From the NCBI RefSeq assembly GCF_026000575.1, contig NZ_AP026910.1, forward strand, positions 248,001 to 312,000: a stretch of DNA of 64,000 nucleotides, read 5' to 3'. Positions 26,110-28,387 of this stretch are shown here, piece after piece. Source of the stretch: Rhodoluna sp. KAS3. Its GTDB lineage: Bacteria; Actinomycetota; Actinomycetes; Actinomycetales; Microbacteriaceae. Below the pieces are notes generated by a model. That model did not search any database. It was not told the origin of the DNA and saw only the letters and a list, made by a program, of their open reading frames with translations. Every line of letters begins with the position of its first letter. The stretch's first letter is position 1. The position numbers and the translations under genes are program-made.

Positions 26110-26520
26110 ATGAACAAAAACGCCGATAAGAAGCCAGTTCCGCTCATCATCGCTGTGCTTTTTGTGCTTCTCGAAGGGTTGGTGGTTGCCTACTTTGCAG
26201 CCCAATTGGGTTTTGGCATATTGATGGGTGATAGCCGTAGTCTGGTCACCGCAATTGCTCTATTTGCTCTTGTTGCGGCCGCCGCGGCGTGGGTTATTTT
26301 TGTCGCAATTTCTTTGCTTACGGGCAAGCGTTGGGCGCGAAGCGGAGCCTTGTTTTGGCAGCTGATTCAGCTGGCTGTTGCGACTGGATCTTTTAGCGGC
26401 CAATTCGGTAGTCAAGCCATTGGTTGGAGCCTAATTTTGCCTTCGGCTGTGGTGCTGGTGGCCCTGTTCAATAAGCAGACAATTGCTGCCACTATGAAGA
26501 GCTCAGACCCAGAAGACTAG
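26110..26520 (+). CDS. Small four-helix membrane protein, unknown function
   Basis: The 136-residue product has four hydrophobic segments (about residues 10-33, 43-68, 77-95 and 99-117) and a charged tail ending SSDPED. The ATG at 26110 follows GAGGAA; a frame extending back to 26020 has no supporting start signal. I recognise no motif beyond a likely actinobacterial conserved membrane protein. It converges on the peroxiredoxin gene with a 4-base overlap. Confidence 0.75.
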   Translation: MNKNADKKPVPLIIAVLFVLLEGLVVAYFAAQLGFGILMGDSRSLVTAIALFALVAAAAAWVIFVAISLLTGKRWARSGALFWQLIQLAVATGSFSGQFGSQAIGWSLILPSAVVLVALFNKQTIAATMKSSDPED

Positions 26521-26990
26521 ATTCCTAGTAGCTTTCGAAGCATTAGAACGTGGCCGGTTGCCTTTACGTTGTAGAGGGCAAGGGAAACTTTTCCGGTCTC
26601 GTCGATCGCAAAGGTTGACCGCAGAACACCGGTGTACTCGCGGCCGTAGAGCTTCTTGAGCCCGTAGGCGCCAAATGCCTTGTGAACCGATAGGTCGGCG
26701 TCGCTCAGCAATTCAAAGTTCAAGTCTTGGTTCTGCTGGAAAGTCTTTAGCTTCGGTACCGCATCAGGAGAGATGCCAAGAACTGTGTAACCTGCAGCCT
26801 TAAATGGGTTTAGGTTGTCGTTGAAGTCGCAGGCTTCTTTGGTGCAACCTGGGGTTGAGGCGGCAGGGTAGAAGTACAAAATGACTTTCTGGCCTCGGTA
26901 GTCAGATAGCGAAACAGGCTTTCCGTCTTGGTTCTCGACCGTAAAGTTTGGGGCTTCATCACCGGCAGCAAGTTTTTTCTCATCAGACAT
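26517..26990 (-). CDS. bcp: Thioredoxin-dependent peroxiredoxin, Bcp/PrxQ type
   Basis: This reduces hydrogen peroxide and organic peroxides using thioredoxin. The 157-residue product has the peroxidatic site PAASTPGCTKEAC with Cys49 and the resolving Cys54 five residues later, the pattern of atypical 2-Cys Bcp. ATG 26990 is chosen over a GTG at 26996 because a TAGACT -10 box (26998-27003) lies seven bases before the ATG, which suggests a leaderless message; the GTG would be almost inside the -10. Confidence 0.93.
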   Translation of the reverse strand: MSDEKKLAAGDEAPNFTVENQDGKPVSLSDYRGQKVILYFYPAASTPGCTKEACDFNDNLNPFKAAGYTVLGISPDAVPKLKTFQQNQDLNFELLSDADLSVHKAFGAYGLKKLYGREYTGVLRSTFAIDETGKVSLALYNVKATGHVLMLRKLLGI

Positions 26991-26997
26991 ATTCACC

Positions 26998-27050: not shown

Positions 27051-27126
27051 GCGCCTCTAGCTCAATCGGCAGAGCAACTGACTCTTAATCAGTGGGTTCC
27101 GGGTTCAAGTCCCGGGGGGCGCACCA
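27051..27126 (+). tRNA. tRNA-Lys (anticodon CTT)
   Basis: The acceptor stem GCGCCTC pairs with GGGGCGC, the anticodon stem-loop is ACTGA-CTCTTAA-TCAGT and the T-loop is GGTTCAAGTCC. The 3' CCA is encoded (27124-27126). The 76-base cloverleaf is complete. Confidence 0.97.
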
Positions 27127-27202: not shown

Positions 27203-28387
27203 ATGCACGAGCTAATTGACATCCAGTCTGACCCAGAGTTAATTCTCGAAAAACACTTTTCGGGATTGCATTCGGGCGGGGGCAGAAGCTCGATTCGTGG
27301 CGGTCAAACCGCAGCTAATCAGGCTATGCACGAGCTGGACATCCGTGGTTATGCCGCCCAGCGCTCAGAGGTTTTACCGCGCTCAAAACGCGGGGCAACG
27401 GTGCTGTCGCCATACATTCGTCACAACCTGATAACCCTGAAGCAGGTTTGGCAAGAGGTTGAGGCAGCGCCCTATAAAGATCGTGAAAAATTTCAAGATG
27501 AGTTGTTGTGGCAAGAATATGCTCGCCACCTTTATGCCCGCATCGGTACCGAATTCTTTGAGAACCTTAGGTTTGAGCAGGTTTGGGATGCCCCGGGTGA
27601 CGGTTGGAATCGCGACATGAGGTGCATTGACGAGGTGGTTTCTGAGCTCGAACAGGATGGCTGGCTGGTCAACCAAACTCGTATGTGGTTGGCTTCACAC
27701 TGGACTGTGCGCAACGGTCGTGGATGGTTGCATGGTCAAGAGCGGATGCACCGCGAACTTATCGATGGATCGCGAGCCGCAAATCTATTGGGTTGGCAGT
27801 GGACGGTTGGCTCGGGCGGAAAGCCCTACGGTTTTGCTCGCTGGCAGGTAGAGAAACGCGCACCGGGTCTCTGCCTCAAGTGCCCGCTGAACAAGTCGTG
27901 CCCTATCCAAGAGTTTCCAGCAGATAAGCCCCTGCTCCAACTTGAATCCAGGCCAAGGCTGGACAGTGACCCTGACCTTGCCCGGACCACAGGGCCAGTT
28001 TCGGTTATTCAAAATGCCAAACCGGATGCCGTTCTGCTGACCATTGACTCGATGGGAGACGCAGATCCAGCTCTGGCGGCCAACCCTGATTTGCCGGTTG
28101 TATTTGTTTTCAACCGCGATGCCCTGGCCAAATTGCAACTCTCCTCGAAGCGAATTTACTTTTACCTCGAGACTCTGCAGGACCTCGCCAGCCGCAGAAA
28201 CGTATCGGTGTATTTGGGCAGCCCGTACGAATATGCCAAGGAGCACCGCGTTGCGGTCACCTATGCGCCGGTACCGAGCTTTGCCAGGTTCGAGGATCTG
28301 GCCGAGGTGCACCCGTACCCATGGCTCAAAAAACCGCACGCCATGAGTGTGCGCTCGTTTAGTTCGTGGCGCTCAAAGATTCGGTAG
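27203..28387 (+). CDS. Photolyase/cryptochrome-like FAD-binding protein with apparently reordered domains
   Basis: Residues 1-225 of this 394-residue protein match the helical FAD domain of photolyases: VLSPYIRHNLITLKQVW (canonical LSPYLxxGxxSxRxV), FQDELLWQEYARHL, the DGW-x2-NQTRMW segment, and the hallmark DGSRAANLLGWQW near residues 188-200. A Cys group CLKCPLNKSCPIQ follows at about 223. The N-terminal alpha/beta antenna domain of normal photolyases is missing. Instead the C-terminus (about residues 273-380) has a Rossmann-like block with LPVVFVFN, SSKRIYFYLETLQDLASRR and VSVYLGSPYEY, which resembles that missing domain. ATG 27203 is the only sensible start; earlier in-frame starts lie in the tRNA or its terminator. 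Repair activity or signalling is not established. Confidence 0.75.
   Translation: MHELIDIQSDPELILEKHFSGLHSGGGRSSIRGGQTAANQAMHELDIRGYAAQRSEVLPRSKRGATVLSPYIRHNLITLKQVWQEVEAAPYKDREKFQDELLWQEYARHLYARIGTEFFENLRFEQVWDAPGDGWNRDMRCIDEVVSELEQDGWLVNQTRMWLASHWTVRNGRGWLHGQERMHRELIDGSRAANLLGWQWTVGSGGKPYGFARWQVEKRAPGLCLKCPLNKSCPIQEFPADKPLLQLESRPRLDSDPDLARTTGPVSVIQNAKPDAVLLTIDSMGDADPALAANPDLPVVFVFNRDALAKLQLSSKRIYFYLETLQDLASRRNVSVYLGSPYEYAKEHRVAVTYAPVPSFARFEDLAEVHPYPWLKKPHAMSVRSFSSWRSKIR

Follow-up and report, generated by a model that had tools for sequence, protein, structure and literature searches.

A probable Fe-S-type member of the inverted-topology photolyases in the actinobacterium Rhodoluna sp. KAS3

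The window, by which we mean the whole stretch of 64,000 nucleotides from Rhodoluna sp. KAS3 that was analysed, encodes a photolyase-like protein in which the FAD-binding part comes first and an alpha/beta domain comes last. We consider it very likely that the gene belongs to the Fe-S branch of the short photolyases with inverted topology (NewPHL/SPL), and that the product is a light-driven repair enzyme for cyclobutane pyrimidine dimers (CPDs) with FAD, a four-cysteine cluster and an antenna-type C-terminal domain. The domain inversion is real but the class is a known one, and the protein is an actinobacterial, Fe-S-type member of it, not a new family. Inverted photolyases have reportedly been known since about 2020, when NewPHL is said to have been described by Emmerich et al. 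in NAR, and the SPL with an Fe-S cluster is likewise attributed to Xu et al., 2021, in Mol Biol Evol. NewPHLs and SPLs are described as short photolyase-like proteins with an inverted domain topology that repair CPDs in single-stranded DNA (PMC13274461), SPLs as CPD photolyases bearing an Fe-S cluster (PMC9649867), and SPL is listed among eight main groups (PMC9178010). The first-pass annotation had supposed that known photolyases always carry the antenna domain first, which the inverted topology already described for NewPHL/SPL contradicts (PMC13274461), and it had proposed a circular permutation or a domain-swapped new family; the inverted order stands, but NewPHL and SPL are already in print (PMC13274461, PMC9649867).

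Gene, domain layout and conservation

Table 1. Window coordinates of the inverted photolyase gene and its features
Feature	Position	Strand	Basis
Whole gene, 394 aa + stop, inverted-topology photolyase (SPL/NewPHL class, Fe-S branch)	27203..28387	+	Translation, Pfam, homologues, alignment, dN/dS
FAD-binding catalytic domain, residues 29-220	27287..27862	+	Pfam, phmmer, Foldseek
E100-L-L-W103, aligned with class I photolyase Glu and Trp	27500..27511	+	E100 and W103 invariant in 21/21
C141, first of four putative Fe-S ligands	27623..27625	+	99/99 rows; alignment with FeS-BCP Cys
W154-LV-N157-QT-R160-M161 motif	27662..27685	+	W154, N157, R160 and M161 invariant in 21/21
DGSRAANLLGWQW, residues 188-200, with N194, W198 and W200	27764..27802	+	phmmer alignment, invariance
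C224-x2-C227-x5-C233, three further putative Fe-S ligands	27872..27901	+	99/99 rows; FeS-BCP alignment
C-terminal alpha/beta domain, residues 272-394 (start approximate)	28016..28384	+	Kinship with canonical N-terminal DNA_photolyase domain
Stretch of C-terminal domain aligned to DNA_photolyase, residues 277-346	28031-28240	+	

When the protein was scanned whole, FAD_binding_7 (PF03441) was the sole Pfam match (residues 140-209, E 6e-9), covering profile positions 55-124 of 203 and leaving the final part of the profile, positions 125-203, unmatched, and PF00875 was absent. The canonical class I layout of an N-terminal PF00875 and a complete PF03441, as seen in the canonical protein of the same genome (PF00875 at 4-159, PF03441 at 255-449), was thus not found in it by Pfam. 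Among solved structures, the best phmmer matches were class I CPD photolyases, covering residues 29-209, and nothing matched past residue 220. Those enzymes (1owl/1tez, Synechococcus elongatus, formerly Anacystis nidulans) share the FAD pocket and the active-site motifs with the window protein but, unlike it, have the antenna domain first and a complete FAD domain. None of the NCBIfam photolyase models came near its cut-off (best 44.6 bits versus 884.6 needed).

The motifs follow the same order, with LSPY at residues 68-71 and DGWLVNQTRMW at 152-162 in the FAD part, and VVFVFN at 299-304, SSKRIYFYLETLQDL at 314-328 and VYLGSP at 336-341 in the C-terminal block. Both the FAD-first reading of the first-pass annotation, with no antenna domain ahead, and its Rossmann-like block behind the FAD part were therefore borne out. 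No antenna-type domain is encoded in frame upstream of the FAD part, and a longer mechanical ORF from 27092 is not credible because it would overlap a tRNA-Lys gene at 27051-27126, the photolyase gene starting 76 bases beyond. A separate antenna gene upstream, which would have undone the inverted reading, was rejected, as it is this tRNA-Lys gene that lies there. Elsewhere in the genome, which is a single contig of 1.34 Mb, there is a canonical photolyase at C1:571043 and, separate from the inverted gene, a PF04244 gene of the FeS-BCP/CryB type at C1:81631.

Homologues with the same layout were found. The order of FAD domain, cysteine block and C-terminal block was constant in an alignment of the query and 20 relatives, which are 48-94% identical to it (L013 and L014, both partial, were left out), and two Deinococcus proteins share the FAD-first order. 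Relative to the closest relative seen, dN/dS was about 0.04 for the whole gene (0.029/0.675), being 0.04 for residues 1-265 and 0.05 for residues 266-394; purifying selection acts on the whole gene. The possibility of a truncated pseudogene was rejected on the same ratio.

Strong matches (E below 1e-100) were present in 23 of the 149 genomes searched, own genome included: 11 of 67 Rhodoluna genomes, many of the 67 being incomplete, one further genus of Microbacteriaceae, and 11 genomes outside that family, spread over five more families of Actinomycetales. At E 1e-5 or better a match was found in 109/149 genomes, the other 86 having weaker matches that were restricted to the FAD part. A pattern scan of 84,980 species genomes returned 458 stretches encoding relatives, canonical photolyases included, and the record titles of the best 80 of these were mostly actinobacterial. 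Plasmid records with a match numbered 78, of which five were examined; two of the 78 cover at least 80% of the query, and these are the two Deinococcus ones used here. Several metagenome-assembled records carry titles that fit poorly with a gene identity of 66-69% to the query and may be mislabelled or misbinned (L053, L063, L101 and L109, Bifidobacterium breve; L078 and L079, Chloroflexi; L065 and L076, Ilumatobacteraceae; L069, Acidimicrobium). In Aquiluna sp. M30B12 (L074:6001-7188) the match ends at query residue 376 with the conserved C-terminal tail out of frame, a loss due to a frameshift or an assembly error.

The C-terminal domain and the four cysteines

Sequence comparison supports the C-terminal block as a diverged relative of DNA_photolyase (PF00875), the domain found at the N-terminus of canonical enzymes, and it is this kinship that makes the domain order an inverted one. 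When 58 C-terminal domains (drawn from 65 pieces under 85% identity, with the two Deinococcus proteins and five others left out) were scanned alone against 24,736 Pfam models at E up to 10, PF00875 was matched by 23 of them (best E 0.0044), and the runner-up family by four (best E 0.095). The window protein's own block, scanned alone at the same limit, matched no Pfam family. Among six inverted proteins scanned whole, that of Deinococcus sp. AJ005 matched PF00875 at residues 300-395 with an E of 7e-4, which is below the curated cut-off, and the other five (D. wulumuqiensis and four presumed NewPHLs) did not match it.

Comparison of profiles, the check that had been envisaged for this block, was carried out with hhalign and aligned the C-terminal profile with that of 31 canonical N-terminal domains over 68 columns at a probability of 86.8% and a score of 40.3. 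The controls in this comparison were 30 column shuffles, which scored 8.6-18.0, and a reversed profile, which scored 12.1. The match covers the antenna domain's first half. Because the rest of the C-terminal domain is shorter in the actinobacterial branch than in Deinococcus, a full antenna pocket in that branch appears improbable. The C-terminal block of the presumed NewPHLs aligned with the canonical N-terminal domain at 41% (score 31.7), and the window-type and presumed cysteine-free NewPHL C-terminal profiles did not match each other directly (0.2%).

AlphaFold gave models with a pLDDT of 81.8 and a pTM of 0.85 for the full-length protein and 86.6 and 0.78 for the C-terminal domain. With the latter alone as Foldseek query, class II photolyases ranked first and third and had the top query TM-score of the matches listed (0.52), but their E values were only 0.03-0.07 (best 0.034), and methyltransferases and universal stress proteins followed closely. 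The structural check thus places class II photolyases on top without separating them well from other folds, and on the question raised at the outset of whether the block has an unrelated fold, it is the sequence kinship to PF00875 that speaks against this, the fold comparison by itself being weak.

The four cysteines C141, C224, C227 and C233 are all present in 99 of 99 rows, the two Deinococcus proteins included. These rows contain some duplicates (one contig was reached via two collections) and exclude L013, L014, L063, L080, L107 and L074, which are frameshifted or cut, as well as the presumed NewPHLs L115-L117. A cysteine trio had been proposed to join the two parts of the protein, and CLKCPLNKSC is indeed there at residues 224-233, but the fourth invariant cysteine, C141, had been overlooked. 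In an unconstrained hhalign comparison with 14 congeneric proteins of the FeS-BCP type, all four aligned with FeS-BCP cysteines (97.7%, E 2e-12), which we take to be the ligands of a [4Fe-4S] cluster. Such a cluster is described for FeS-BCPs (PMC13274461). Unlike the window protein, the FeS-BCP/CryB/PhrB proteins (prokaryotic 6-4 photolyases) have the usual order, an N-terminal DPRP domain (PF04244) and about 500 residues. Membership of the FeS-BCPs was rejected on the absence of PF04244 from the window protein in Pfam.

The presumed NewPHLs in our set, namely those of Ruegeria, Asticcacaulis and Peteryoungia and 14 Microbacteriaceae-family genes, were assigned by architecture and taxon, none being a characterised NewPHL. 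The cysteine trio is absent from the first three (L115-L117), of which L117 nonetheless has a cysteine in the C141 column, and from 13 related Microbacteriaceae-family proteins within the aligned stretch compared; the presumed NewPHLs read GYLHNHxRM and lack the trio, whereas the window branch reads GWLVNQxRM and has it. With NewPHL the window protein shares the inverted topology, the short length and a Trp dyad rather than a triad. With the Fe-S SPLs, as these are described, it shares the short length, the lack of an N-terminal alpha/beta domain, cysteines of the Fe-S type and an FAD domain near class I CPD photolyases. The assignment to the SPL/NewPHL class accords with the lack of an alpha/beta domain ahead of the FAD domain, a C-terminal alpha/beta domain akin to its canonical counterpart and a class I/III CPD-type FAD domain with conserved active-site residues, and that to its Fe-S branch with the homology of the four conserved cysteines to those of FeS-BCPs.

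Relationships and gene neighbourhood

In a tree built from 46 FAD-domain rows, the midpoint root of which lies on the FeS-BCP branch, the window branch, the presumed NewPHLs, the canonical enzymes, the FeS-BCPs and the Deinococcus pair each formed one side of a branch. FeS-BCP was split from all other rows with a support of 100/100. The window branch and Deinococcus joined at only 63/59, and the presumed NewPHLs and canonical enzymes joined weakly, at only 88/66 and with a long-branch warning. A single clade of all inverted proteins, the NewPHLs in this set being presumed ones, was not rejected (p-AU 0.127) but not demonstrated either. A circular permutation or a domain shuffle may lie behind the inverted order. 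We think it unlikely that the architecture of the Fe-S inverted proteins (window branch and Deinococcus), with the FAD part in front, a cluster and the alpha/beta domain at the end, predates the one seen in the usual photolyases, in which case the standard order and cluster loss would be derived and the cysteine-free NewPHLs intermediate; the tree allows such a history, with its key branches weakly supported and long branches meeting, but FeS-BCP itself has the usual order.

The window gene is probably the orthologue of cpf2 of Rhodoluna lacicola. The R. lacicola locus tags are rhola_00007890 for phrB, 00011000 for cpf2, 00013030 for cryB and Rhola_00011030 for a peroxiredoxin (PMC8591293). 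In one genome (G006), genes matching phrB, cpf2 and cryB lie at 807, 1105 and 1330 kb and a peroxiredoxin-like ORF adjoins the short photolyase gene; since these three genes and the neighbour match the locus tags, G006 probably represents R. lacicola or a near relative, which would make this family cpf2. The transcriptome paper calls cpf2 uncharacterised and reports that its transcript, like those of phrB and actR, decreases in the light and increases in darkness (PMC8591293).

In the window, a peroxiredoxin-like gene (26517-26996, minus strand) lies upstream of the tRNA-Lys and short photolyase genes, and such a gene is found less than 2 kb from the photolyase gene in six loci of relatives (L033, L034, L039, L103, L168 and L170). 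Any of ten neighbours of the window gene was present in 6 of the 84 loci in which they were sought. A survey of the 553 ORFs lying no more than 4 kb from the gene in 80 loci (L033-L112, some being short) revealed no constant partner; the commonest neighbour cluster occurred in 12 of the 80, on both sides and both strands. A gene that by eye resembles FAD/NAD(P)-dependent oxidoreductases lies just downstream on the opposite strand in six of these 80 loci (L057, L073, L086, L092, L094 and L101), and in Asticcacaulis an NAD(P)-binding protein gene lies directly upstream of the related gene. In two Rhodoluna genomes the short photolyase shares a contig with a PF04244 (FeS-BCP, CryB-type) gene within about 1.5 to 6 kb (G061:C271:2-850 with 2397-2978; G066:C82:7466-8638 with 1166-1753).

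Active site, proposed function and alternatives

All 21 aligned proteins keep the same ten residues of catalytic type: E100, W103, W154, N157, R160, M161, W175, N194, W198 and W200. Going by the phmmer alignment and E. coli numbering, we take E100 and W103 to correspond to the Glu and Trp with which class I photolyases contact the dimer, N194 to occupy the position beside flavin N5 and W198 that of the first Trp of the electron chain, two Trp of which are presumably among the invariant residues. Two positions differ from S. elongatus 1tez in the phmmer alignment, with S190 and Q158 in place of an Asp and an Arg. The distal Trp of the triad aligns at W129, a position that is not conserved, in keeping with the Trp dyad that one NewPHL is reported to have (PMC8948257). 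By Foldseek, the fold of the FAD domain was matched best by 1owm (E 3e-7), and the highest query TM-score among the matches listed was 0.47, for the Fe-S cryptochrome CryB (3zxs). No solved structure of the SPL/NewPHL class was recognisable among the phmmer and Foldseek matches listed.

Judged by its sequence, the window protein is most likely a CPD photolyase. For this protein we infer repair activity, binding of FAD and of an Fe-S cluster, and the state of antenna binding. FAD would be held in the N-terminal helical domain and, in its reduced form, be excited by blue or UV-A light, whereupon an electron would pass to a cyclobutane pyrimidine dimer near E100, W103 and W200 and the dimer would be split, perhaps preferentially in single-stranded DNA. 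The putative cluster on C141, C224, C227 and C233 would occupy the place of the missing last part of the FAD domain. The shortened C-terminal alpha/beta domain would pack on the FAD domain, and probably seals it without holding an antenna pigment.

A cryptochrome, acting as a light sensor for the actinobacterial light-dark transcription response without repair, would be compatible with the listing of cpf2, the likely orthologue, among putative R. lacicola light sensors and with the cycling of its transcript in light and dark, yet the expression pattern is like that of phrB, as expected for repair, and actR behaves likewise (PMC8591293). Repair may already be covered by the canonical photolyase and the PF04244 (FeS-BCP type) gene of the same genome, but the invariance of all ten catalytic-type residues and the repair activity reported for the SPL/NewPHL class (PMC13274461, PMC9649867) argue for an enzyme, and a core light sensor would hardly be expected in just 11 of the 67 Rhodoluna genomes, many of which are incomplete. 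We therefore regard a sensor role as improbable. Still less probable is a 6-4 photolyase like the four-cysteine FeS-BCPs: the alignment of the cysteines and the TM-score of CryB point that way, but the active-site motifs are of the class I CPD type, the FeS-BCPs stand fully apart in the FAD-domain tree, and SPLs are reported as CPD photolyases (PMC9649867). The lack of a Pfam match for the C-terminal block of the window protein alone and the weak, mixed Foldseek matches of its model might suggest a degenerate or truncated photolyase that became joined by accident to some unrelated Rossmann-like domain, but this is hardly credible given the order kept in the 20 aligned relatives and two Deinococcus proteins, the low dN/dS and the relationship of the block to PF00875.

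With the inverted CPD photolyase as the preferred reading, a light-related gene that had lacked a characterisation in small-genome actinobacteria, and that is probably cpf2 in the freshwater species R. lacicola, is identified as an Fe-S inverted photolyase, and there is sequence evidence that the C-terminal domain of the inverted class is the antenna-type domain in another place. Since an ancestral position relative to all photolyases and cryptochromes has been proposed for the SPL/NewPHL class (PMC9649867), these well-conserved small members would be useful for structural work.
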